Positions 8,004-22,874 of a DNA stretch of 34,826 nucleotides are shown one piece after another. The translations under genes and the position numbers were made by a program. The notes under the pieces were generated by a model. The model was given only the letters and a program-made list of their open reading frames with translations. It was not told the DNA's origin and did no database searches. Numbering within the stretch: the stretch's first letter is position 1; each line of letters opens with the position of its first letter. The DNA is from Desulfobacterales bacterium (GTDB taxonomy: Bacteria; Desulfobacterota; Desulfobacteria; Desulfobacterales; RPRI01): assembly GCA_020052975.1 (NCBI GenBank), contig JAGVOC010000281.1, positions 1-34,826 on the forward strand, read 5' to 3'.

Positions 8004-8894
8004 TTATTGACTATTTTTGACTGCATCAAGACGTTCAGCAGCATTTAAAACGAGGTCAAGCGCACGGGGGATGTTCCCGATTATCTCCGAAATCCGGGTG
8101 GCAGGAGTCGGCATAGTGTAATTCCCTGCAAGTCTGTTGACCTTCGCAGCAATAACAGCGGCCTTGCTTGTATCCATTCCCGACTCTATGAGCGCAGAGA
8201 CAATTCCCGTCAGGGCATCACCAGTACCACCGATAGGTTCAAGCGCCGGCACATCTGGACTGTCAACAACAGCTATTGTCCCGTCCTTATCAGCGATATA
8301 GTCCTTTTCTCCCTTTACAAGAAGAAAACGCGCCGCATTTTCATGTGAATATGCCCGGGTAATGAGGTCTGGAACATGGTTTTCCTCGTGCAGAATAAAC
8401 CCTCTGGTATAAAACGGATGAGGCGCATCTTCGTCCGCCAGAAAAGCGAGTTCTCCTGCGTCAGGGGTAAAGAGATCGAAGAGAGGAGCATTGCCGCTCA
8501 TTTTTGCCACATACATGAATCCTGCATCAGCAATGAGAACAGGACGGGATGCCATTTCTTCGATTGAGAACATTATTTTATTGCACCAGTCAACATCAGG
8601 TTGTAAATAATGAAAGGCCATTGTCGTAAATTGTGTAGTCCTGATATGATCTGCGAGGAATTTGTATAGTCGCCGGCTGCCGTCTCCCAGGCCGGTATCG
8701 CCGACCAGACAGGCAAAAGGAAGCGGGCTGTTCAGGAAATGCAGCGTTTTGCAAACTGCTGCGATAAGGGCTGGTGTACCTCTGTTTATCCCGAACGAAT
8801 GCCCCTGAACCTGCAGCCTGTCATTCTGCAAAAGGACTTTACCCGACACAAGAGGAAAATTTTTATCCGGAATAGTTCCGATTACCGCGAGCAT
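8004..8894 (-). CDS. Ribokinase-fold protein related to NAD(P)H-hydrate dehydratase/sugar kinases
   Basis: 296 residues. The C-terminal part has LLVKGEKDYIADKDGTI at about 199-215, then EPIGGTGDALTGIVSALIESG at about 225-245; the GGTGD motif with its catalytic Asp is the signature of the ribokinase/YjeF-C fold. An earlier FTPDAGELAFL stretch at about 141-152 fits the (T)PNxxE position of these enzymes. The true substrate is unknown. The gene overlaps the Se/S-carrier gene by 13 bases and lies within the yedE operon, so a link to selenium or sulfur metabolism is likely but unproven. The usual N-terminal epimerase domain of NAD(P)HX repair enzymes is absent, which argues against routine housekeeping repair. 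Confidence 0.7.
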   Translation of the reverse strand: MLAVIGTIPDKNFPLVSGKVLLQNDRLQVQGHSFGINRGTPALIAAVCKTLHFLNSPLPFACLVGDTGLGDGSRRLYKFLADHIRTTQFTTMAFHYLQPDVDWCNKIMFSIEEMASRPVLIADAGFMYVAKMSGNAPLFDLFTPDAGELAFLADEDAPHPFYTRGFILHEENHVPDLITRAYSHENAARFLLVKGEKDYIADKDGTIAVVDSPDVPALEPIGGTGDALTGIVSALIESGMDTSKAAVIAAKVNRLAGNYTMPTPATRISEIIGNIPRALDLVLNAAERLDAVKNSQ

Positions 8895-9433
8895 CTTGTT
8901 GTCATTTCTTCATATGCCAGCTGCAAAGCATAGCCGCAGAGTGTATGGCCGATTGATCGGGGAGATGGGGCCTCTGACAGGTGTTTGCCGATCATTTCAC
9001 TTGCCAGATAAGGCACATCAGGGCACCCGCCGCCTGAAATATTCACAATAACCATCGTATCTTTATCAACCGTAAGTTTCATATTGGCTGCCCTGATCAT
9101 GAGATAATTGCCGAAGTCCTTGATATGAAAAAGGTCTACCGGCTTGAGGAGGGTATTGCCGACAGGGACTACCTGCAGTGGTTCTACTTTTGCTTCGCCG
9201 AGTCTCCTTAAGATATACAGTTTTTCGATGAGTGGAAATTCTATCACGAGATCGCAGCCCGTCCGTATTTCTGGTGGAGGACCCATGACACGAATCCGCC
9301 ACCCTTCTGATTTGAGAATATTTTCTGCCCGTATTACCTCGCTTGTATTATCAAATACGAGTATGCCCCGATCCTGATTCTTTGTTTGGGGCATATTGTC
9401 TGCTTTTTTCTTTGCAAAACTGAACAGGGGCAT
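8882..9433 (-). CDS. DUF3343 / putative Se-S carrier-like protein
   Basis: About 183 residues from ATG 9433 (MPLFSFAKKKADNMPQ), which follows AAGGAG by 4 bases. A longer in-frame start upstream would run into the TusA-like gene and is less likely. The core RGILVFDNTSEVIRAENILK, GWRIRVMGPPPEIRTGCDLV and a second half containing GGGCPDVPYLA follow the DUF3343 family, which Pfam describes as putative Se/S carrier proteins. The conserved RTGCD Cys is the likely carrier residue. The C-terminal half after about 110 (VVPVGNTLL to the end) resembles an additional thiol domain with its own GGGCPD. It sits between the TusA-like and kinase-like genes, overlapping the latter. Confidence 0.75.
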   Translation of the reverse strand: MPLFSFAKKKADNMPQTKNQDRGILVFDNTSEVIRAENILKSEGWRIRVMGPPPEIRTGCDLVIEFPLIEKLYILRRLGEAKVEPLQVVPVGNTLLKPVDLFHIKDFGNYLMIRAANMKLTVDKDTMVIVNISGGGCPDVPYLASEMIGKHLSEAPSPRSIGHTLCGYALQLAYEEMTTRCSR

Positions 9434-9434
9434 A

Positions 9435-9653
9435 TCACTCCTTTTTAATGGTAATACGGTATCCTTCGCCTTCTCCCCGGCTATCAACAACCTGCCATCC
9501 CTGCGTTTTCGCCGCACGGCTTACGTTTTCCATAGAGGTATCAGTATCCACCATAATAACTATTTCGCCTCTATTGACGTTCCTGATTTCATTGAGAGTC
9601 ATTAACACGGGCTGTGGGCATGAGAGCCCCCTCGCATCAACAATACTGCTCAT
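9435..9653 (-). CDS. TusA/YedF-family sulfurtransferase-like protein
   Basis: 72 residues, a complete single TusA-like domain. It starts MSSIVDARGLSCPQPVL with the family's active Cys in the CPxP motif at C12, and the C-terminal GEGYRITIKKE matches the last strand. TusA proteins pass persulfide sulfur between partners; YedF relatives next to yedE are associated with selenium metabolism. The stop TGA lies just before the next gene's ATG, so the two are coupled. It starts 15 bases after yedE with an AGGAG ribosome binding site. The neighbours favour the YedF-type selenium role over tRNA thiolation. Confidence 0.85.
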   Translation of the reverse strand: MSSIVDARGLSCPQPVLMTLNEIRNVNRGEIVIMVDTDTSMENVSRAAKTQGWQVVDSRGEGEGYRITIKKE

Positions 9654-9667
9654 GTCTCAATCCTCCT

Positions 9668-10759
9668 TTATGCTGTTTTCCTCATAGTGAATCCAATGAA
9701 TAGACATGCTGCCAGTCCGATTACTACAGCAGCGATACCGTTAGGGCCAACTCCATTTGGTGAACTCGCAATTCCGAAATTATGGGCAAATCCAGCTCCT
9801 ACAATCATCCCCGAAACAAAGACTGCAGCGTCCCCGTCTCCTTCACCCGCCAGAAAAAGCTGACGACCCGGGCAGCCGCCTGCAAGTGCAAATGCGAGCC
9901 CTGCCAGTGCCATTCCCGCAAAATTCCATACTTGCATTGTGTGAGCTACCGGCTGGTTGGTAAAACCAGGATGGAATTGATTGAGAATCAGATTCATAAT
10001 AAACGCCGTAATCGTGAGGCTGAGGACTCCCAGAAAAAGATGCGGCTGACGGAACAAAATCAAATCACGAAATGCTCCCATGGTACAGAAACGGCTTCTC
10101 TGTGCCAAAAAACCTACCCCAAGACCAACACCGAGGGAAATTATCAGAGGAGCATGCATCGAACCGGGGCCCTTGATACTGTAAAAAAGTACATTGCTTC
10201 TTGCCTGTCCTTGAATTTGAGGATCGATAAGCATCATGATGAGAAATCCAAGGATAGCCAGAGGTAATATCCAACCTACTGATGTATGTGTTTTTTGGGT
10301 GCGTCCCAGGTCATACCCGCCCTTGAGAAATAGTGTGCCGATCCCTATGCCTGTAATGAGTCCGAGCAGACCCAGAATAGCATTCCAGTCTCCGCCTGCA
10401 AGACGGAGGAGGGCACGCCACGGACAACCCAGAAAAACGAGGGCCCCGATCATGGAAAAAATTCCGAGGACAAACCTCACAATAGGTGCAGAACCAACCC
10501 GCGGTCTGAACTCCTTGAACAGATACGCTGCAATTAATGACCCGAGAACAAAGCCGAGAATTTCCGGGCGCATATACTGGACAACTGCGGCTCTGTGCAG
10601 ACCAAGAGCTCCTGCAATATCCCGGTCGAAACAGGCTACGCAGATACCCATATTCCCCGGATTTCCCCATTTCTGCAGTAATGGTGCAAAAATACCGATA
10701 CATATACCAACACCTATGATACCCCAGCGAGATGCGAAGAAGTTTTTGAACGTTCCCAT
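9668..10759 (-). CDS. yedE: YedE/YeeE-family putative selenium (or sulfur) transporter
   Basis: 363 residues with about nine or ten hydrophobic segments. Family-specific cysteine motifs are visible: GICVACFDRD near 37, FLGCPWRALLRLAGGDW near 115-130, RSRFCTMGAFRDL near 225-237 and LAGGCPGRQLFLAGEGDGD near 295-313. Proteins of this form next to a TusA/YedF gene are the selenium-metabolism branch of the YeeE/YedE family (thiosulfate or selenium-compound uptake). It is the first gene of the minus-strand operon, with AAAGGAG 5 bases before the ATG. Two palindromes at 10815-10851 lie about 56 bases upstream and are candidate operators. The in-frame TGA codons in hmcF and arsM make a selenium substrate more plausible than sulfur alone. 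Confidence 0.85.
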   Translation of the reverse strand: MGTFKNFFASRWGIIGVGICIGIFAPLLQKWGNPGNMGICVACFDRDIAGALGLHRAAVVQYMRPEILGFVLGSLIAAYLFKEFRPRVGSAPIVRFVLGIFSMIGALVFLGCPWRALLRLAGGDWNAILGLLGLITGIGIGTLFLKGGYDLGRTQKTHTSVGWILPLAILGFLIMMLIDPQIQGQARSNVLFYSIKGPGSMHAPLIISLGVGLGVGFLAQRSRFCTMGAFRDLILFRQPHLFLGVLSLTITAFIMNLILNQFHPGFTNQPVAHTMQVWNFAGMALAGLAFALAGGCPGRQLFLAGEGDGDAAVFVSGMIVGAGFAHNFGIASSPNGVGPNGIAAVVIGLAACLFIGFTMRKTA

Positions 10760-13091: not shown

Positions 13092-13192
13092 AAGGGTTCT
13101 TACCGTCCAAACACGTCTTATTTATTGATAAATATACCATAATATACTGTTTGAACAGGGGAATCAGAGCCTTGTTTCTATGCAAGGATAGC

Positions 13193-13222
13193 TTGATATT
13201 ATTACGGGCATATGCTTATAAT
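13193..13222 (+). promoter_or_regulatory. Sigma-70-type promoter giving a near-leaderless DUF134 mRNA
   Basis: TTGATA at 13193-13198, an 18-base spacer and a perfect TATAAT at 13217-13222. Transcription would start near 13229, only a few bases before the DUF134 ATG at 13232, which has no ribosome binding site. Confidence 0.6.
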
Positions 13223-13231
13223 AGAAATTAT

Positions 13232-13525
13232 ATGCCAAGACCGAGGAAATGCAGAGTCGTTCAATGCAGACCTGATGCGACATATTTCAAACCGAGGGGC
13301 ATACCATTGGTTGATCTTATGGAAGTGTCAATTTCCCTGGAAGAGATAGAGGCTATAAGGCTTGCTGATTATGAACGACTTTACCATGAAGATGCAGCAA
13401 AAACGATGAACATTTCACGGCAAACCTTTGGAAGGATTCTCAAGGATGCGCGCAGAAAGGTTTCAGAATGCCTGATTGAAGGAAAGGCATTAAGAATAGA
13501 CACAAAAAAGGAGGAAGGGCAATGA
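13232..13525 (+). CDS. DUF134-family HTH DNA-binding protein
   Basis: 97 residues from ATG 13232. The family's invariant start MPRPRKCR is present, which fixes the start although an upstream in-frame ATG exists. After a FKPRGIPL segment comes a sigma-70-region-4-like helix-turn-helix: LEEIEAIRLADYERLYHEDAA, then ISRQTFGRIL as the recognition helix at about 62-72. DUF134 genes are typically placed next to NifX/NifB-like small proteins, as here, and are thought to be regulators. The stop overlaps the following gene's ATG by 4 bases. Confidence 0.85.
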   Translation: MPRPRKCRVVQCRPDATYFKPRGIPLVDLMEVSISLEEIEAIRLADYERLYHEDAAKTMNISRQTFGRILKDARRKVSECLIEGKALRIDTKKEEGQ

Positions 13526-13902
13526 AGGTGTGTTTTCCGGTAGCAGAGGTAAATGGAATTGCGAGTGAGGTGTATGGACATTTCGGTTCGGCGCCGGCAT
13601 TTGTTATCGTTGAGACTAACGACAATAAGGTGACCACAATCAAAAACGACGATCAGCATCATGCGCATGGCGCATGTAATCCGCTGAAAAAATTCAATAA
13701 TCATCAGGTGGATGCACTTGTAGCCGCGGGCATTGGAACGGGGGCTTTGAATGTTTTAAACCAGTCCGGTATTAAGGTCTTTCAGGCACAGGCTCCAACG
13801 GTGAGAGAGAATATTGCTTTACTGAAAACAGGGAATCTGCCCGAGTTTACTTCCCAGCATACCTGTGCAGGTCATGGCCATGATGGAGGATGCGGACATT
13901 AA
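13522..13902 (+). CDS. NifX/NifB-like dinitrogenase iron-molybdenum cofactor family protein
   Basis: 126 residues with AGGAGG 8 bases before the ATG. The start MKVCFPVAEVNGIASEVYGH and the HFGSAPAFVIVE segment are the family signature; VDALVAAGIGTGALNVL at about 72-88 and the GIKVFQAQA strand complete the RNase-H-like fold. The C-terminal tail CAGHGHDGGCGH is a His/Cys metal-binding extension. Such proteins bind Fe-S or Fe-Mo cluster precursors, but many occur in organisms without nitrogenase, and no nif structural gene is present here. It is coupled to DUF134, and a general Fe-S or metal carrier role is most likely. Confidence 0.85.
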   Translation: MKVCFPVAEVNGIASEVYGHFGSAPAFVIVETNDNKVTTIKNDDQHHAHGACNPLKKFNNHQVDALVAAGIGTGALNVLNQSGIKVFQAQAPTVRENIALLKTGNLPEFTSQHTCAGHGHDGGCGH

Positions 13903-13977
13903 AAGAAGTTGTTCTGTATATACTTAGCGCGGAATGACAAGTAACTAAGGAATTCATATGTAAGGCATCATTCTTGA

Positions 13978-14026
13978 GAAATCCCCCCTTGCCCCTCTTT
14001 TCCAAAGGGAGGGCAGGAGGGATTTC
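13978..14026. repeat. Palindromic intergenic repeat (REP/MITE-like)
   Basis: A 49-bp imperfect palindrome begins GAAATCCCCCCTTGCCC and ends GGGCAGGAGGGATTTC, with a CTCTTT-TCC-AAAGGG core. Arms of this type recur as scattered hairpin repeats in many bacterial genomes. It sits between the NifX-like and CGGC genes and could fold into a strong RNA hairpin that attenuates read-through. Confidence 0.7.
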
Positions 14027-14092
14027 CAAATCAATGTCTTCATACTTATGACCGTATGAGTAATTCTGAATGTATGCAAAAAGGAGGTTATT

Positions 14093-14467
14093 ATGGCAAA
14101 GGGAAAGAAAAGGATAGCAATTATTGCATGCAAGAACATTAAGGGTGTTAGTTGTGTGGGCGGATGTCTGAAATGTTTCAAAGGGATCTCGGAGAGAGCC
14201 GGTGAGTATGAGCGGTGGAAGGATTATGATGTTGAAGTTATAGGGATGGATGATTGCGGAGGTTGCCCCGGAGTTATTATGCCCAAACTCGTTCTTATAA
14301 TGGATATGGGAAAGCTCTATGACAGAGATTTTGATGCGGTGCATCTTGGCACTTGCATTATGAAAGCGACACAGACAGCACAATGCCCTATTAATGTTGA
14401 AAAATTAAAGAATCTGATTGAAACAAAAATGGGCAAAGAGGTTATTCTGGGAACACACGCTTATTAA
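14093..14467 (+). CDS. CGGC-domain protein
   Basis: 124 residues with AAGGAGG 6 bases before the ATG. Cysteines are arranged as KRIAIIACKNIKGVSCVGGC with C13, C21, C25 and C28, then DDCGGCPG at about 61-68 (the CGGC motif), HLGTCIMKATQ near 107 and CPIN. CGGC-domain proteins are small cytoplasmic proteins predicted to bind a metal or Fe-S cluster; their function is not established. Its position beside the DUF134 and NifX-like genes fits a metal or cluster handling group in anaerobes. A palindromic repeat precedes it. Confidence 0.85.
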   Translation: MAKGKKRIAIIACKNIKGVSCVGGCLKCFKGISERAGEYERWKDYDVEVIGMDDCGGCPGVIMPKLVLIMDMGKLYDRDFDAVHLGTCIMKATQTAQCPINVEKLKNLIETKMGKEVILGTHAY

Positions 14468-15417: not shown

Positions 15418-16677
15418 ATGAATGGTTCATCGAATTGGGATTGGGATACTAAAGAGAAATTAGTAGCAGATATCGATGGGTGGAGGAAAAAATATTACGC
15501 TATCCGCGACCTTGTTCCCAGTGATGACGGCGAGAAATTAGCTACTATAGTGAAAAATGAAGAGAGAAGATTTACTCCCGGCGTGAATGGAGAGACGTGG
15601 GAAGAAACCTTTGAACGGGTTTACTCGTTAAAGTTCACTCCGGATGGTCAATTAGTATCACTTGTGTTCAGAGACTATGAATGGGCAGTTGCAGTCGACC
15701 ATGAGATGTGGGAAGAAAAATTCGATTACCTGTGGAACCTTACGATAAGCCCTGATGGGAAAAGCATCGCAGTCAATACGAGAACAGGCGAGATGACGAG
15801 CGGAGTTTGTATGAACGGGAAAGCATGGGAAAACACTTTCCCCGAGGCAAGAGATCTTACACTAAGTCCCGATGGAAAAAGGACTGCATCACATGTACAG
15901 GTAAATCCGCGTGCCGAACTGGATATCCTCGGATTCCTTAAGAAAAATTGGACAGCTGCAGTGGATGGAACCGCTTGGGATACCACCTTCTTAACTCTCT
16001 GGGGGTCTGTCTTCAGTGATGACAGCAATCATGTTTCAGCTGTAGGAATGACAGACCTTTCTCAATATACGATTGTAGTGGATGGCACTCCGTGGGAGCA
16101 GGTATTCGGCACTGTGTGGGAGCCGATCTTCAAGCCTGGAAGTATTGATGTAGTTGCCCCTGTACAGACACCCAAGGGATGGACTCTTGCAATGAACGGG
16201 AAACCGATATGGAATTATTTTTCACAGGTATGGAAGCAGAAATATGGTCCTGATGGCCGGAGACTGGCTGCTGTTGTTGCAGTAGACGTTGGGAAATGGA
16301 CAGTAGCAGTTGAAGGTTCTCCGTGGAATTCCGTATACAACCAGCTTGTATTATCCCCAATATTCAGCCCTGACGGGAATAAGGTAGCGGCTGTGGTAAA
16401 AAACAATAACAAATGGACAGTCTCTGTAGATGGGACAGTGTGGTCTGAAACCTTTGATAATATATGGGATCCGGTTTTTAGTCCCGATGGCGATAATCTG
16501 ATAGCAAAGGCTGAGAAGAACGGAAGATATTTCATCACTGTGAACGGAAAAATCGGGAAGAAAGATTATGAGAGGCTCTGGAACCCTGTTTTCAGTTCTG
16601 ACGGGACAAAAATTCTGGTGCGGGCTCTGGATAAAGGAAAATATTACCGCAGGATAGTGTCTGTAAACGAAATCTAA
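15418..16677 (+). CDS. TmcD-like tryptophan-rich beta-propeller protein of the Hmc/Tmc complex
   Basis: 419 residues made of about eight repeats of roughly 45-50 residues. Each has a W-x-V/A-x-V-D/N-G-x-x-W strand, then F-x-x-x-W/L, then a FSPDG or SPDGK turn (for example NLTISPDGKSIAV and WDPVFSPDGDNLIA). This is the pattern of TmcD-type Trp-rich subunits and of WD40/TolB-like propellers. No signal peptide is seen, so it is probably cytoplasmic. It is the first gene of the operon, 22 bases before hmcE. In Desulfovibrio the TmcD subunit belongs to the Tmc transmembrane redox complex; here a TmcD-like subunit is joined to an Hmc-type set. Its role (scaffold on the cytoplasmic face) is inferred. 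Confidence 0.7.
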   Translation: MNGSSNWDWDTKEKLVADIDGWRKKYYAIRDLVPSDDGEKLATIVKNEERRFTPGVNGETWEETFERVYSLKFTPDGQLVSLVFRDYEWAVAVDHEMWEEKFDYLWNLTISPDGKSIAVNTRTGEMTSGVCMNGKAWENTFPEARDLTLSPDGKRTASHVQVNPRAELDILGFLKKNWTAAVDGTAWDTTFLTLWGSVFSDDSNHVSAVGMTDLSQYTIVVDGTPWEQVFGTVWEPIFKPGSIDVVAPVQTPKGWTLAMNGKPIWNYFSQVWKQKYGPDGRRLAAVVAVDVGKWTVAVEGSPWNSVYNQLVLSPIFSPDGNKVAAVVKNNNKWTVSVDGTVWSETFDNIWDPVFSPDGDNLIAKAEKNGRYFITVNGKIGKKDYERLWNPVFSSDGTKILVRALDKGKYYRRIVSVNEI

Positions 16678-16699: not shown

Positions 16700-17374
16700 A
16701 TGGAATTATTAGGGAGTACGACACTATACAACATTCTAAGGGGACCTCTCGTGTGGGTAGCATTTCTTGTTTTTATCGGGGGGAGCAGTTACAGGGTCTA
16801 TCAATTGCTGGATATGGCAAAAAAAGAGAAGGTGATTTTTCCCTTCATAAGCCTGAAAGCCACTTTGAAATCTATTTTTCACTGGGTTATCCCTTTTGCT
16901 TCAAGGAACTGGCGATTAAGACCTGTGATGACTGTAGTAACCTTTCTTTTCCATATATGTCTTGTTTTTACTCCTATCTTTTTACTTTCACACAATATCC
17001 TTTGGCGTGAGTCCTGGGGGATAACATGGTGGAGTTTGCCTGAAAATATTGCAGATATTATGACCTTGGTAGTCATTTTTACCTGTATTTTCTTTCTTCT
17101 CAGGAGGGTTTTTACTCCCGAGGTCAAATTTGTAACATTTCCCTCAGATTACCTAATCCTTGCCATTTCTTTTTTGCCATTTTTTACCGGGTTCCTGGCA
17201 TATCACCAGTGGGTTCTTCCGCATAAGGCCATGGTGAATCTTCACATCCTTTTTGGAGAAATCATGTTGATAGCAATTCCCTTCACCAGATTAGGTCATA
17301 TGTTCTATTTCTTTTTAACAAGGTCATGGATGGGTTCTAATTTTGGTGCCCTCTGGCATACAAGAGACTGGTAA
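16700..17374 (+). CDS. hmcE: HmcE-like membrane cytochrome b subunit (NarI/DsrM type)
   Basis: 224 residues, close to the size of Desulfovibrio HmcE and much shorter than DsrM. There are about five membrane helices (near 14-30, 78-100, 115-138, 148-170 and 183-205). Histidines inside or next to helices (FHICLVF near 83, HNILW near 96, YHQW near 167, NLHILFGE near 180, LGHMFYF near 197) are positioned like haem b ligands of NarI-type subunits. It should anchor HmcF in the membrane and carry electrons between the periplasmic cytochrome and the cytoplasmic Fe-S subunit. The ribosome binding site is AGAGAGGG. Confidence 0.8.
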   Translation: MELLGSTTLYNILRGPLVWVAFLVFIGGSSYRVYQLLDMAKKEKVIFPFISLKATLKSIFHWVIPFASRNWRLRPVMTVVTFLFHICLVFTPIFLLSHNILWRESWGITWWSLPENIADIMTLVVIFTCIFFLLRRVFTPEVKFVTFPSDYLILAISFLPFFTGFLAYHQWVLPHKAMVNLHILFGEIMLIAIPFTRLGHMFYFFLTRSWMGSNFGALWHTRDW

Positions 17375-17403: not shown

Positions 17404-18795
17404 ATGGCAGTAAAGAACGCATCAAAGGAAGCGGTGAAAGAAAAGGTTGTCAGCAGGGAATTTAAGGAATATGTACGAGACGTCATTCCCGATAAAGGCC
17501 TTGACGAAACAATAGCAAGGCTTACCCCGGAAAAGATAGAGAAGACGATAAAAGCGGTTATCGGGGGACGTTCTTCAAGGATAAAAGCGGTGATGAACAC
17601 CTGTATCCACTGTGGACTTTGCGCTGAGGCATGCCAGTGGTATCTCTCCTATGATAAAGACCCGACGTATGCACCGGTTGCGAAAATGAGGATGACCATA
17701 TGGGAGATGATAAAGCGAGATGGAAAAGTTGATGCAGAATTCATTAAGCAGTGCGCACGGATAGTCTTTACGGAGTGCAACATCTGCCATCGTTGCAGCA
17801 TGTACTGCCCGTATGGATTGGATATCACATTTATCATCGGAATGGTTCGTCGCATCTGTTATTTACTCGGGGTAATACCCCAGCGCCAGTTTGACCAGGC
17901 TGAAGCCCATATCGCTACGTTGAACCAGGTCTGGCTTTCCCAGAATGACTGGCTTGACGCCGTTCAATGGATAGAAGAGGAGATAAGCGCGGATTATAGA
18001 GATCTTCGCATCCCTATTGATAACGAGGAAGCAGAGGTTATGTTTTTGCCTCTTGGCGCTGAGCCAAAGACAGGGACGTACCACTTGGAGCGCACAGCAA
18101 AGATAATGCTTGTTGCGGGAGTAAAATGGACGGTTCCCGGCAAGGATGTATGGGACTGCAGCAGCATGTCCATGTTTGTCCGTGATATGGTAACTATGCA
18201 GAGGATTGTGCGCGGGCTGTATGAGAATGCGGCCCGGCTGCGAATTAAAACAATGATGTTGACTGAGTGAGGGCACCCTCGTTTTGCCACAAGTTTTGTG
18301 GCACCGCCGATGCTGGGATACAAAGAACTCCCATTTGAAGTGAAGCAGACGGGTGAGGTTTACTATGACCTCCTCAAGAGCGGGAGGATAAAGATCGATC
18401 CAAGTAAAAAGATTAAAGTGCCTGTCACACTCCAGGACCCGTGTAATATCATACGAAGGGCAGGTGCAGCCGAGAAATTCAGATATATTGTAAATGCAAC
18501 TTGTGAGAATTTCACAGAAATGACCCCGAACCGTGAGCATAACTATTGTTGTAATGCCGGTGGTGGACTTGCTGCTTTGTCCAATTGGGCTTCTCACAAG
18601 GCCAGGGGAAACAGGGTAAAGGCAGAACAGATAAAGGCAACCGGCGCAAAGATTGTCATTACCCCGTGCCATAACTGCAGTACTGGGATAAAAGACGTAA
18701 TCAAGATATGGGAACTGGGGTTAAAGAACATGTTTTTTGATGAACTGTTGGTTAATACCATGGAAATTCCTGAGAAATTTAAAGTAAAGAAATAA
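17404..18795 (+). CDS. hmcF: HmcF-like HdrD/DsrK-type Fe-S subunit with in-frame TGA read as selenocysteine
   Basis: Read through TGA 18268-18270, this is one gene of 463 residues, matching the usual length of HmcF. Two 4Fe-4S motifs are at C67/C70/C73/C77 (CIHCGLCAEAC) and C125/C128/C131/C135 (CNICHRCSMYC). The C-terminal CCG cluster domain has C347 (DPCN), C382-C383 (NYCC) and C422/C425 (CHNC). The TGA is residue 289, giving LTE-U-GHPRFATS, where HdrD, DsrK and HmcF relatives carry Cys in (S/T)ECGH. The frame continues without shift into VAPPMLGYKELPFEVK, and a hairpin follows the TGA. The cytoplasmic subunit should oxidise or reduce a thiol/disulfide-type partner at this cluster. Start: GAGGAG 7 bases upstream. 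A plain nonsense mutation is the alternative. Confidence 0.85.
18268..18303 (+). promoter_or_regulatory. Candidate bacterial SECIS element in hmcF
   Basis: TGA is at 18268-18270. After 14 bases comes a perfect 8-bp stem, TGCCACAA (18285-18292) with TTGTGGCA (18296-18303), closed by a GTT loop whose first base is G. The loop starts 22 bases after the TGA, within the spacing known for bacterial SECIS hairpins, which lie in the coding sequence just after the UGA and are bound by SelB. The hairpin is visible; SelB recognition is inferred. Confidence 0.75.
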
Positions 18796-18816: not shown

Positions 18817-20493
18817 ATGAAAAAAGGGTTGATTGTTTTTATTGTTGGACTTGGCTATCTCATCTTGCTCATCTACGGTATCGGCAGTATCTATTCCGTA
18901 GAAACTCCTCTTGAGGTGAAAAAACCTGTTCAGAAGATCCCCGTTCAAAACTTGGAGGATAAGATATCTATTGCGCATACAGATATTTTCGGATCACTGG
19001 AACGCCCTCAGGTAATTTTTGACCACAAGAAACATGTCGAGGCTCTGGTTAAGGACGGCAAAAAGGAATGGGGAACCTGTGATTCCTGTCATCCGTGGAA
19101 TGAAGACAAAACGCTCATGTCTTTTACCTTCCCCAAGAAGGTTGCAAAAAAAGATAAAGATTCCTATATGCATGCTTACCACGACGAATGTATGAATTGT
19201 CATAAAGAAATGAGTTCTCAGAAAAAGAAGAGCGGCCCGGTGGTTTGTGGCGAGTGCCATTCTGAAAAGCTTGCCCTCCTGCACTATAAATATCCGGTAG
19301 CCGAATTCGATTATGCCCACCATGAGAACCATGATAAAAAACTGAAAGAAAAGAATATTGAGGAAAGCTGTTCCTACTGCCATCACATCTATAACGAGGA
19401 ACTTGTCTATGAAAAAGGGAAGGAATGGTCATGTTATTACTGCCACGAGACAGGCAGAAAGACAGGACCGGTTCTTGCAACCGAGACAGGAATTATTGGT
19501 AAAAAAGGCCTTGGTTTGGAAAAAGTCTCCCACATGCGCTGCCTGAACTGCCACCTTTACTTTAAAAAGCAGGAAGTGGGAAAGATCAGGGCAAAGGACG
19601 AAAAAGAGGCACCCCTTGCATGTGTAGAGTGCCATACGGGCAAATATAAGACGGTTGCCGAACTGGAAAAGGTTCCACGCCCCGACAGCGGACAGTCTGA
19701 AAAGGCATTTATAGAAATCGAAAAATCCAGGATGAAGGGCGTGCCATTTGACCATAAGGCGCATCAAACCCAATCCAAAACTTGCAGAGGTTGCCATCAT
19801 GAAACACTGAATGCGTGCAAGGAATGTCATACACTCATCGGAAGTCCGGACGGGGGCAATGTGAATCTCGCCGGCGCCTACCATGATATTACTTCTGAGA
19901 GAAGCTGTTCAGGATGTCATGTTGTCAAAAAATCTGACAAAAACTGTAATGGGTGTCATCATGCAATTATGCCTGTTGATGCACAGACAAGAGGACCCAA
20001 AAAGGCAATCTGCGCACTCTGCCATTCCGGAAAGCGCGAACTCCTTCCCTCAACAAAGCTTTCTGTGAAAGGTCTCGATACAGAAAAGGTTAAGAAGGAG
20101 GTAGAAGTAAAGATTCTTGAGAGGGAATACGAGCCTTCAAAATTCCCTCATATGAAGATTATCGAGAAAATGACACAGATCTCGAATGATGACAAATTGG
20201 CTTCCTATTTCCACAGGGATCTCCAGACGCTCTGTGAAGGATGCCACCACCAAAGCAAGGCTGAAGCAGAAGTTAAGAAAGACGAACCGCCCTATTGCAG
20301 GAACTGCCATTCCGTGGCTTTTGATCCTCAGCGACTGAACAGGCCGAGATTACTTGCCGCATATCATCGTCAGTGCATAAAGTGTCACGAGAAGATGGAA
20401 CTTGAGAAGCCGAAGGAATGCAAGGAATGTCATAAGGAAAAAGAAGTACGACCGAAAGATATTCTTTCAAAACCAGCGGAAGCAAGCCGGTAG
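18817..20493 (+). CDS. hmcA: HmcA-like 16-haem periplasmic cytochrome c
   Basis: 558 residues with exactly 16 CxxCH haem motifs, from CDSCH near residue 89 to CKECH near 540. This is the haem count of Desulfovibrio HmcA. The N terminus MKKGLIVFIVGLGYLILLIYG is an export signal or membrane anchor, so the body is periplasmic. Several motifs are CxxCHH or lie near spaced His, as in class III cytochrome c repeats with bis-His haems. It should collect electrons from periplasmic hydrogenase or formate dehydrogenase via small cytochromes and pass them to the membrane subunits. It lies 21 bases after hmcF; in Desulfovibrio hmcA is first, so the order is rearranged. Confidence 0.88.
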   Translation: MKKGLIVFIVGLGYLILLIYGIGSIYSVETPLEVKKPVQKIPVQNLEDKISIAHTDIFGSLERPQVIFDHKKHVEALVKDGKKEWGTCDSCHPWNEDKTLMSFTFPKKVAKKDKDSYMHAYHDECMNCHKEMSSQKKKSGPVVCGECHSEKLALLHYKYPVAEFDYAHHENHDKKLKEKNIEESCSYCHHIYNEELVYEKGKEWSCYYCHETGRKTGPVLATETGIIGKKGLGLEKVSHMRCLNCHLYFKKQEVGKIRAKDEKEAPLACVECHTGKYKTVAELEKVPRPDSGQSEKAFIEIEKSRMKGVPFDHKAHQTQSKTCRGCHHETLNACKECHTLIGSPDGGNVNLAGAYHDITSERSCSGCHVVKKSDKNCNGCHHAIMPVDAQTRGPKKAICALCHSGKRELLPSTKLSVKGLDTEKVKKEVEVKILEREYEPSKFPHMKIIEKMTQISNDDKLASYFHRDLQTLCEGCHHQSKAEAEVKKDEPPYCRNCHSVAFDPQRLNRPRLLAAYHRQCIKCHEKMELEKPKECKECHKEKEVRPKDILSKPAEASR

Positions 20494-20508: not shown

Positions 20509-20622
20509 ATGTATATCTTTGAACAACTATTTTCCCATCACGGATATGAATATGCGGTAGCTGTGCTGGCGATGTTTGTTTTTATAATTTTCTATGCTAT
20601 TCTCATTTCGGAAAGGAAATAA
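20509..20622 (+). CDS. hmcD: HmcD-like single-helix membrane peptide
   Basis: 37 residues, MYIFEQLFSHHGYEYAVAVL then one hydrophobic helix (AMFVFIIFYAILI) ending SERK. It has a perfect AGGAGG 5 bases before the ATG. It lies 15 bases after the cytochrome gene and 19 bases before the hmcB ATG. Its size, single helix and position match HmcD (47 residues in Desulfovibrio), the small membrane subunit of unknown role. The paired His in SHHG could contact a haem. Confidence 0.65.
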   Translation: MYIFEQLFSHHGYEYAVAVLAMFVFIIFYAILISERK

Positions 20623-20641
20623 ACTGCATGGAGGCAAACGC

Positions 20642-21676
20642 ATGAGTATGAACAGAAGAGAATTCCTGAAACGATCGTTAACCATAGCAGGTACTTCGCT
20701 GCTGAGTGGTGGAGCTATTGCCCATGCTGCAAATACCCCTGACCCTTCTATTTATTCAACCGGCAACACGGCCAATGAGAGAAACTGGAAAATATGGGTC
20801 GAAAAAGAAAAGTCCGGGACCATCCTTCCTGTCCAATACGGAGTCCTTGTCGATACTACCCTCTGTATCGGGTGCCGGAGATGTGAGTGGGCATGCAATG
20901 AGTGGAATAACAATCCGAACAGGCCGGTAAAAGAGTTTGAAGCGTCGGTGAACCAGCAAAAATCCGTCTTTGATGCCGTGCGGAGAATGCATGCCGGGAA
21001 TTTTACCGTAGTGAACCGATACAGGAGTTCCAAAGACGGGAAACCCATATATGTGAAAAGGCAATGCATGCATTGCGATGATCCGGGGTGTTTATCCTCC
21101 TGTTTTGTCGACGCATACAGGAAAGCAAAAAATGGTCCTGTTATGCACAATGCGAGCGTCTGTATCGGATGCCGGTACTGTATGGTGGCCTGTCCTTTTG
21201 ATGTGCCTGCCTACGAGTACTATGCGCCCCTGAACCCGCAGATTACAAAATGTACGTTCTGCTTCGACAGAATCTCGCAGGGCAGTGTGCCTGCCTGTGT
21301 CGAGATCTGTCCTGCCGGAGTACTGACGTTCGGTACCAGGGAAGAACTCATGAAAATTGCCTATGAAAGAATAGGAAACAGCCCTGAGAAATACATCGAC
21401 CATGTATACGGAGAGCATGAAGTGGGAGGCACGAGCTGGCTTTATCTCTCTTCAGTGCCTTTTCATGAAATAGGGCTCAGAACAGATATCGGAAAAACAC
21501 CCGTACCGAAACTGACCAAGGGGTATCTCCTCGGGGTGAAAATGTTCGAAATAGTCGGTGCCTGGCCTCTTGTTTTCGGGGCCTATTATGCAATATCAAA
21601 GGCCCGCAAGAAGGCTCATGCGGGACATGAAACATCTGCAGAGACGGAAGGAGAAGGCCATGGCGGAAAGCACTAA
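20642..21676 (+). CDS. hmcB: HmcB/DsrO-like periplasmic four-cluster ferredoxin subunit
   Basis: 344 residues from ATG 20642 (GGAGG 7 bases upstream); a farther upstream in-frame ATG would put extra residues before the Tat signal. The N terminus MSMNRREFLKRSLTIAGTSL is a twin-arginine signal (RREFLK), so the protein is exported folded with its clusters. Four 4Fe-4S motif groups are visible: CIGCRRCEWAC, CMHCDDPGCLSSC, CIGCRYCMVAC, and CTFCFDRI with CVEIC. A C-terminal hydrophobic helix (VGAWPLVFGAYYAI) may anchor it. It passes electrons between the multihaem cytochrome and the NrfD-type subunit, whose gene overlaps its 3' end by 17 bases. Confidence 0.88.
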   Translation: MSMNRREFLKRSLTIAGTSLLSGGAIAHAANTPDPSIYSTGNTANERNWKIWVEKEKSGTILPVQYGVLVDTTLCIGCRRCEWACNEWNNNPNRPVKEFEASVNQQKSVFDAVRRMHAGNFTVVNRYRSSKDGKPIYVKRQCMHCDDPGCLSSCFVDAYRKAKNGPVMHNASVCIGCRYCMVACPFDVPAYEYYAPLNPQITKCTFCFDRISQGSVPACVEICPAGVLTFGTREELMKIAYERIGNSPEKYIDHVYGEHEVGGTSWLYLSSVPFHEIGLRTDIGKTPVPKLTKGYLLGVKMFEIVGAWPLVFGAYYAISKARKKAHAGHETSAETEGEGHGGKH

Positions 21677-22874
21677 TTCCTGGTTCAGAGAAAAAATACT
21701 CCTCGGGAAATCCAACAGAGATTACATCGCAGGTCTTGCCACGCCCGGGAACTTCATATTGGCTACTATTGCAGTCTATGGCATAATTGTCATGATTTAT
21801 CGGCTCTTTTTTGGTCTCGGGCCGGCGACCAATCTGAACGATAACTACCCATGGGGTTTCTGGATCGGCTTCGACATCCTTGTCGGCATCGCATTGGCGG
21901 CTCCCGGCCTCACTCTGGGAACAGCGGTGCATCTCTTCGGCATGAAGGACTATCACCATTTTGTGCGCCCGGCGATCCTTTCAAGCCTTCTCGGCTATGT
22001 TTTTGCGGTTTTTGCGCTTCTGTTTGACCTTGGTCGTTATTACCGCATTCCTTATCTTCTGGTATGGTCGTGGGGATTTTCATCCGTTCTTTTCCTGATC
22101 GGCTGGCATTTCTTCCTCTACATAAACATCTGTATCATAGAATGGAGCCCGGCCCTCTTTGAATGGCTGAATCTCAGGAAACTCCGGGAATTCGCAAACA
22201 GAATGGCGATCTGGGCAACCATTTTTGGTGTTATCATAGCCGGTGGACATCAATCCGCACTCGGTGGGTTATATCTCATCGCTCCTGCAAAACTCCACCC
22301 CCTCTGGTATTCCATGTTCCTGCCTGTATTCTTCCTTCTTTCTGCTATATTTGCAGGCATTGCCATGGTGATTGTAGAAAGTACCATTACCCATGGCGTG
22401 TTCAAAGGGCAGCTGAAAAATTTCAGTCAGGCCGACTTTGACAGACGCACTATCGGTCTCGGTATAGGTGCAGCAGCAGCTTTATTCATTTACTTTATTT
22501 TGAAAATATTCGATCTGGCTCACTCGGATAACTGGGCATATCTGAATACGTTCTATGGGTTCTGGTATCTGGTTGAGGTAATCGGATTTGTTCTCCTGCC
22601 GGCGATGCTCTTTACCTCGGGGGCAAGAAACCGGAATGCACAGCTCATACGGCTTACAGGGTTTTTAACGGTGTTCGGTGTGATATTGAACCGTCTTAAT
22701 GTATCGATTTTTGCATATAACTGGCAGCTTCCCGCGTCAATGAAATATTTTCCAAAATGGATGGAACTTTCACTCTCTTTCGGGGTTGTTGCCATGCTTA
22801 TCCTCGCGTACAAATTTATTGTAAACCGGATGGCGATCATGCAAGATCACCCTGATTACGAATCAGGGCATTAA
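21660..22874 (+). CDS. hmcC: HmcC/NrfD-type membrane quinone-interacting subunit
   Basis: 404 residues from ATG 21660 (AAGGAG 6 bases upstream, inside the hmcB tail). About ten hydrophobic segments span the protein. The early PWGFWIGFDILVGIALAAPG stretch and the later segments are typical of the NrfD/PsrC/DsrP family, which carries quinone binding and often proton movement on the periplasmic side. There are no haem or cluster motifs, as expected. It is the last gene of the operon and is followed by a strong terminator. Confidence 0.88.
   Translation: MAESTNSWFREKILLGKSNRDYIAGLATPGNFILATIAVYGIIVMIYRLFFGLGPATNLNDNYPWGFWIGFDILVGIALAAPGLTLGTAVHLFGMKDYHHFVRPAILSSLLGYVFAVFALLFDLGRYYRIPYLLVWSWGFSSVLFLIGWHFFLYINICIIEWSPALFEWLNLRKLREFANRMAIWATIFGVIIAGGHQSALGGLYLIAPAKLHPLWYSMFLPVFFLLSAIFAGIAMVIVESTITHGVFKGQLKNFSQADFDRRTIGLGIGAAAALFIYFILKIFDLAHSDNWAYLNTFYGFWYLVEVIGFVLLPAMLFTSGARNRNAQLIRLTGFLTVFGVILNRLNVSIFAYNWQLPASMKYFPKWMELSLSFGVVAMLILAYKFIVNRMAIMQDHPDYESGH

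Follow-up and report, generated by a model that had tools for sequence, protein, structure and literature searches.

A TmcB-like iron-sulfur subunit with a predicted selenocysteine in a Tmc/Hmc-type operon, very probably from a Nitrospirota bacterium

The 34,826-nt stretch of contig JAGVOC010000281.1 (hereafter the window, taken at its full length, to which all window coordinates refer) carries a row of six genes in the order TmcD-TmcC-TmcB-like-HmcA-HmcB-HmcC, as assigned with NCBIfam models (Table 1). The third gene encodes a TmcB-like subunit of the TmcB/HmcF/DsrK superfamily, with two 4Fe-4S (Fer4) motifs and a CCG domain. Its frame runs from ATG to TAA over 463 residues, with GAGGAGG just 5' of the ATG, and the sole internal stop is a TGA at codon 289, flanked by TE and GHP. 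The original prediction had joined the two open pieces across this TGA without a frame change, and they do form one frame. The comparisons described below indicate that the gene is almost certainly a selenoprotein gene, in which the UGA is read as selenocysteine (Sec289), and that its product is very likely a Sec-containing subunit of a transmembrane complex of the Tmc/Hmc type.

The window protein scored 503.5 bits against the TmcB model (NF045724, cut-off 735), 368.2 bits against HmcF (NF045711, cut-off 750), and 169.0 bits against DsrK (NF045796, cut-off 400), each below the cut-off. Because the TmcB score is the highest, and because TmcD- and TmcC-family genes scoring over their cut-offs lie just upstream, "TmcB-like" is a better label than hmcF, the name originally proposed, which we rejected as a firm name. 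The gene order of the window was found in 10 of the 11 fetched loci long enough to reveal it (L001-L004, L051, L052, L055, L056, L058, and L059), the exception being L005, which holds a broken copy. Since the loci closest to the window gene are Nitrospirota metagenome-assembled genomes (L001 at 92% identity and L002-L004 at 80-87%), the host of the window is very probably a Nitrospirota bacterium.

Codon 289 alternates between TGA and cysteine codons among the relatives. Among 36 distinct Nitrospirota loci that reach this codon with an identity of 40% or more, 17, counting the window, have TGA, 11 have TGC, and 8 have TGT, and no other codon occurs. The 16 further loci sharing the TGA extend down to 44% identity and stand in for the resequencing of the codon suggested in the original prediction. 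Left out of this count were ten loci below 40% identity, all with TGC or TGT, and the genome G005 (L005/L036), on account of its broken gene. The ten remoter matches, at 25-29% identity, have TGC or TGT in 10/10; L040, the sole one checked against the models, fitted DsrK best (551 bits). Relatives with neither Cys nor TGA, which according to the original prediction would have spoken against Sec at the ECGH cysteine, did not turn up.

At the protein level, all 73 homologues longer than 300 residues among the 120 matches listed have ECGH, with Cys. The other 47 are 280-299 residues long, and every one ends in LTE, at the residue preceding 289, suggesting that gene calling cuts the TmcB-like subunit at the Sec in 47 of 120 listed database matches; the codon behind these short proteins was read only where they are the same genes as the sequenced loci. 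When residues 1-269 of a deltaproteobacterial Cys homologue (P0064) were used as the query, no protein ending at the Sec site was found among the best 120 of 2355 matches, and the 93 new proteins among these all have ECGH (93/93), so that this search yielded no Sec form from Desulfobacterota.

A quick tree of 66 proteins, which included 30 of the 73 full-length homologues and from which residue 289 was left out, requires at least six changes between Sec and Cys, whose direction is not readable from the tree. In the genome G002 (L002:4283-15379), a Sec-type TmcDCB set is directly followed by a Cys-type TmcDCB set and HmcABC, with a single HmcABC set for both, and one Sec copy of the genome G147 (L051) is adjoined by TmcD only. 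The two forms, alternating in close relatives and in tandem in G002, thus provide a natural experiment on the contribution of selenium.

The ratio of nonsynonymous to synonymous substitution rates (dN/dS) after the TGA was 0.048-0.089 against the five nearest loci, and 0.046-0.073 before it (computable for 4/5), values to be read with the high dS and the simple method in mind. Against four remoter loci, the ratio after the TGA was 0.24-0.25 for two and saturated for two. These values indicate that the frame 3' of the TGA is under purifying selection.

Bacterial selenocysteine insertion sequence (SECIS) elements are judged by the loop and by its distance from the UGA. In the window, positions 18285-18292 pair with 18296-18303 around the loop GTT, which lies at a distance of 22 nt from the TGA, so that the 8-bp hairpin with a G-first loop named in the original prediction is present. 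Synonymous-codon shuffles (n = 1000) equalled this hairpin at frequencies of 0.053 by energy, 0.072 by stem length, and 0.058 for a stem with an early-loop G; dinucleotide shuffles equalled it in 11/200. The hairpin is convincing because of its conservation across the TGA genes. At the stem positions, 84.6% of 136 cells are paired in the 17 TGA genes, versus 30.9% of 152 cells in the 19 Cys genes, and when the TGA set was slid by 1-3 columns, pairing was 22.8-54.4%. Two-sided changes occur at three stem pairs, the innermost of which reads A-T and T-A in five genes each. The mean folding energy was -14.9 kcal/mol for the TGA genes and -7.7 kcal/mol for the Cys genes (Mann-Whitney p 4.6e-6, which is too small since the rows are related). 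Across the family there is thus a hairpin 3' of the UGA with an early-loop G. Rfam gave zero matches in the window at gathering cut-offs, and the hairpin therefore rests on the pairing counts of the present analysis.

The machinery for Sec, which the original prediction had proposed to look for, was searched for in the 14 relatives' genomes that carry TGA genes (G001-G004, G133, G143, G147, G184, G285, G335, G337-G339, and G342). A tRNA-Sec (selC) with anticodon TCA was found in 12 (no match in G003 and G337), SelB over the cut-off in 13 (not in G147), SelA in 12 (not in G003 and G147), and SelD in 13 (not in G184). Of the 13 selD genes, 12 have an in-frame TGA of their own and the last is a fragment. 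The lack of selB and selC, which the original prediction would have counted as refuting, was thus not borne out in most of these relatives. A tRNA-Sec-like match at E 1e-10 was found in 120 of 295 genomes of the phylum, including Cys-form ones such as G172, so that missing machinery does not explain the Cys forms.

Several observations weigh against the reading of the UGA as Sec. The hairpin of the window is borderline by itself, and the register is lost in 3 of the 17 TGA genes (L028, L029, and the Sec copy of L051, with 5, 5, and 3 bp, respectively). The covariation score was 0.145 at a slide of -3, versus 0.138 in the true register. The machinery is incomplete in G003 (selA and selC), G147 (selA and selB), G184 (selD), and G337 (selC), and some SelB matches, for example in G335, may instead be a second SelB linked to selC*, a type of tRNA(Cys) taken up below. 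In addition, the tmcB gene of G005 is broken (L005:10001-10747): its resemblance to the family ends at about residue 258, a TAG follows, and the L005 locus showed no other gene of the operon. Taken together, we nevertheless assign Sec289 with high confidence, on the basis of a UGA at a position otherwise always occupied by Cys, a 3' hairpin that is conserved, the Sec machinery of the relatives, and purifying selection. Genome-wide reassignment of UGA was rejected, as TGA terminates 6 of the 29 window open reading frames (ORFs) taken as genes and only Cys codons alternate with it at position 289.

When a profile of the family was compared with the PDB sequences, the only matches were EtfD (9ojn) and two HdrB proteins; a single-protein query matched EtfD alone. 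C347, C382, C383, C422, and C425 align with EtfD C637, C672, C673, C709, and C712, the ligands of its second non-cubane cluster, indicating that the window protein holds the ligand set of the second (C-terminal) HdrB-type cluster. Of the ligands of the first cluster, only Cys/Sec289 is retained. In EtfD, residue 289 aligns with C581, which ligates cluster D1 and precedes the cluster-binding H583 by two residues; the counterpart of C538 is an invariant D251, and C503 has no counterpart. Since the other D1 ligands are lost, a cluster of the D1 type is not expected. The alignment thus places Sec289 beside a non-cubane-type cluster site.

From these results, the following mechanism may be proposed. 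SelB and Sec-tRNA(Sec) would bind the hairpin and insert Sec. The C-terminal half would adopt the HdrB fold with two CCG domains, of which the second would hold one non-cubane-type [4Fe-4S] cluster on the five cysteines named above, whereas in the first, the cluster would have been lost and Cys/Sec289 and His291 would persist, pointing towards the cluster that remains. The selenol of Sec289 could then attack a bond between two sulfur atoms in a cytoplasmic partner, most likely a DsrC-type trisulfide, and the cluster would trade electrons with the periplasmic cytochromes (HmcA) via the membrane subunits. DsrK-like subunits are thought to act on DsrC at this site, where the chemistry would here be that of a selenol. 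A UGH selenoprotein located in a conserved Tmc/Hmc-type operon, with its Sec predicted to face the HdrB-type cluster and lying two residues from the counterpart of the cluster-binding EtfD His, would thereby acquire a concrete, testable role. For the catalytic role in disulfide chemistry itself the chances appear to us even, its basis in analogy counting against it. The original proposal that selenium lies at the disulfide/cluster chemistry thus stays plausible, with its site sharpened by the mapping to EtfD, while the chemistry is argued from related proteins.

The strongest competing view of Sec289 is that, instead of being a catalytic selenol, it ligates the iron-sulfur cluster or adjoins it structurally, by analogy with EtfD C581 at D1. 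The alignment to that ligand, two residues before H583, suits such a role; however, C538 has become D251 and C503 lacks a counterpart, and recurrent exchange of Cys and Sec is called typical of redox-active thiols in the portion of the 2006 survey available to us (PMC1794560). We consider the ligand role possible, and distinctly less probable than the catalytic one.

A second alternative concerns the amino acid: a selC*-type tRNA(Cys) with anticodon UCA, acting with a second SelB, could insert Cys at the UGA, either always or in part of the product. Long tRNA(Cys) genes that resemble selC* do occur in the Nitrospirota genomes, and several of them adjoin a second selB. Transfer RNAs of the selC* type are known from Nitrospirae, with UCA in some of them, and a partner gene, selB*, has been described in Syntrophobacterales and Desulfobacterales (PMC7609411, accessible text). 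With the GCA anticodon and next to a second selB, such genes were seen at L090:4537-4632 (G005:C20) and L091:6550-6642 (G004:C35), and the arrangement recurs in G184:C15, G285:C62, and G338:C13. Nonetheless, every selC*-like tRNA called by ARAGORN has GCA (G004, G005, G172, G184, G285, G289, G335, G338, and G339; that of G147 was not called), and the UCA tRNA called in 12 of the 14 TGA genomes is typed tRNA-Sec, which makes Cys insertion highly improbable. Least credible of all is a real stop, in a pseudogene or between two separately made half-proteins, as the GTG-started downstream ORF (18298-18795) and the broken copy in G005 might suggest, because the identical TGA recurs in 17 loci of widely differing identity with Cys elsewhere, the reading frame is kept throughout, dN/dS past the TGA is low against the nearest loci, and the hairpin is present.

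Outside the operon, the window contains a row of YedE-family, Se/S-carrier-like, and Carb_kinase-domain genes (8004-10759, minus strand), which is kept in L001. The YedE-family and Se/S-carrier-like genes lie near the operon in L001, and none was seen in the other fetched loci. Upstream of the operon (13151-14467, plus strand) are DUF134, dinitrogenase-cofactor-like, and CGGC-domain genes, at least one of which recurs near the operon in L001, L051, L056, and L059.

Table 1. Coordinates of the TmcB-like gene, its predicted Sec codon and hairpin, and neighbouring genes in the window.
Feature	Position	Strand	Basis
TmcB-like (TmcB/HmcF/DsrK superfamily) subunit gene, 463 codons, one UGA predicted to be read through	17404..18795	+	NCBIfam scores, Fer4/CCG domains, dN/dS
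UGA codon, predicted Sec289 (TE-U-GH)	18268..18270	+	Cys/TGA alternation among relatives
Bacterial SECIS-like hairpin, 8-bp stem, loop GTT 18293-18295	18285..18303	+	pairing conservation, shuffles
TmcD-family gene	15418..16677	+	NF045725, 478 bits, cut-off 440
TmcC-family membrane anchor gene	16700..17374	+	NF045723, 291 bits, cut-off 240
HmcA-family multihaem cytochrome gene	18817..20493	+	NF045713, 470 bits, cut-off 400
HmcB-like iron-sulfur subunit gene	20594..21676	+	NF045715, 362.5 bits, under cut-off 420
HmcC-like (NrfD family) membrane subunit gene (start as given by the ORF caller; the real start may be later)	21558..22874	+	NF045714, 462 bits, under cut-off 550
YedE-family putative selenium transporter gene, outside the operon	9668..10759	-	TIGR04112, 482 bits, cut-off 200
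Se/S-carrier-like protein gene, context	8882..9517	-	PF11823, 78.7 bits, cut-off 25

A side clade of the TmcB-like family, outside the window, may carry two Sec residues. L016 (G147:C19:48841-50118) has in-frame TGAs at L016:2284-2286 (codon 289) and 2680-2682 (codon 422). Codon 422 corresponds to the first Cys of CHNC, whose EtfD counterpart, C709, helps to bind the non-cubane [4Fe-4S] cluster. The second TGA is followed by an 8-bp hairpin of its own with the loop GAA, one nt closer to the codon than the hairpin of the window or the first hairpin of L016. This hairpin was reached by a fraction of 0.011 of 5000 synonymous shuffles; 8 bp were found at that site in 0/33 other family members, and 7 bp in one. 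Downstream of the second TGA, L016 agrees with L017 at 31 of 36 residues. When the segment between the two sites served as the query, 33 database proteins were obtained. The best five (P0215-P0219; 117-122 residues, 82-93% identity, 29 member sequences) all terminate immediately before position 422, as do 0/28 of the others. In P0187, Phe replaces Cys422 (TPFHNC), and P0035 ends exactly before Cys422 and is labelled partial (contig of 2.9 kb). Among 395 genomes, 59 contained a match to a DNA pattern for TGA at CHNC; the 20 loci read were chance frames, and the tmcB of G147 was the true one. These observations moderately favour a clade with both Sec289 and Sec422. Against it stand the origin of the DNA in one genome, P0215-P0219 being known as protein only, the absence of selA and selB matches in G147, and the weak hairpin of L016 at codon 289. 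One Sec is listed for the family in the accessible part of PMC13188914. If true, a heterodisulfide-reductase-type cluster of an electron-transfer complex in the membrane would have selenium both opposite it and among its ligands, and, if confirmed, the clade would be a more surprising result than Sec289 of the window.

The original prediction named no earlier report of Sec at this Cys in an Hmc/DsrK-type subunit; Sec in the UGH motif is, however, already on record. In the accessible parts of the papers concerned, a "Fe-S oxidoreductase-like protein" (PTHR43551, UGH) with one Sec stands in Table 1 of PMC13188914, and the same selenoprotein family is given as COG0247 GlpC (PMC9312934), both citing Kryukov and Gladyshev 2004 for it. 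The accessible text of the 2006 survey gives five GlpC selenoproteins, in Syntrophobacter, Desulfotalea, and one in Desulfovibrio vulgaris (PMC1794560), and that of a 2026 review describes the functions of such predicted families as largely uncharacterised (PMC13188914). In the literature searched, outside of which most subscription papers lie, no paper pairing "selenoprotein" with "HmcF" was found. Three papers mention selenocysteine along with TmcB, Hmc, or Tmc terms (PMC2702500, PMC5109826, and PMC4287179), and their available portions do not describe TmcB or HmcF as selenoproteins.

The window protein resembles the UGH family in its TE-U-GH motif and its Fer4 and CCG domains, and its homologues are named "Fe-S oxidoreductase" by JGI. 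It differs in its Nitrospirota origin and Tmc/Hmc-type operon, and the likeness is one of motif and description, with no orthology implied to WP_174406253.1, the example listed for that family. Of the individual complexes, Tmc provides the best family model, TmcB, and the neighbours TmcC and TmcD; the window gene, in contrast, falls short of the 735-bit TmcB cut-off, has HmcA/B/C-type genes next to it rather than tmcA, and has Sec for Cys289. The Hmc complex, described in Thermodesulfovibrio (PMC5165239, accessible text), shares the HmcA-type multihaem cytochrome and the HmcB- and HmcC-like subunits, in an operon order also found in G172; the window protein, however, reaches about half of the 750 bits needed for HmcF, and G172 has the Cys form (TGT). 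DsrK of DsrMKJOP keeps the ECGH Cys in the one DsrK checked (L040), whereas the window protein stays far below the DsrK cut-off. The double-CCG proteins HdrB and EtfD share the fold and the five ligands of the second non-cubane cluster; unlike them, the window protein has lost the motif of the first CCG cluster save Cys/Sec289 and His291. HdrD4 and HdrF2 of Desulfobacterium autotrophicum, in which Sec is reported (PMC2702500, accessible part), are likewise CCG-type, HdrD-like selenoproteins, of a sulfate reducer, in other gene contexts, compared here by description only.

Because the UGH family is on record, and its occurrence in this phylum and operon was not found described, the window gene is a new member of a known selenoprotein family. 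New here are the phylum, the Tmc/Hmc-type operon, the repeated Sec/Cys exchanges, and the mapping of Sec289 near a non-cubane cluster site. These results would tie the UGH family, whose function has so far been unclear, to a membrane complex with relatives in sulfate-respiring bacteria.
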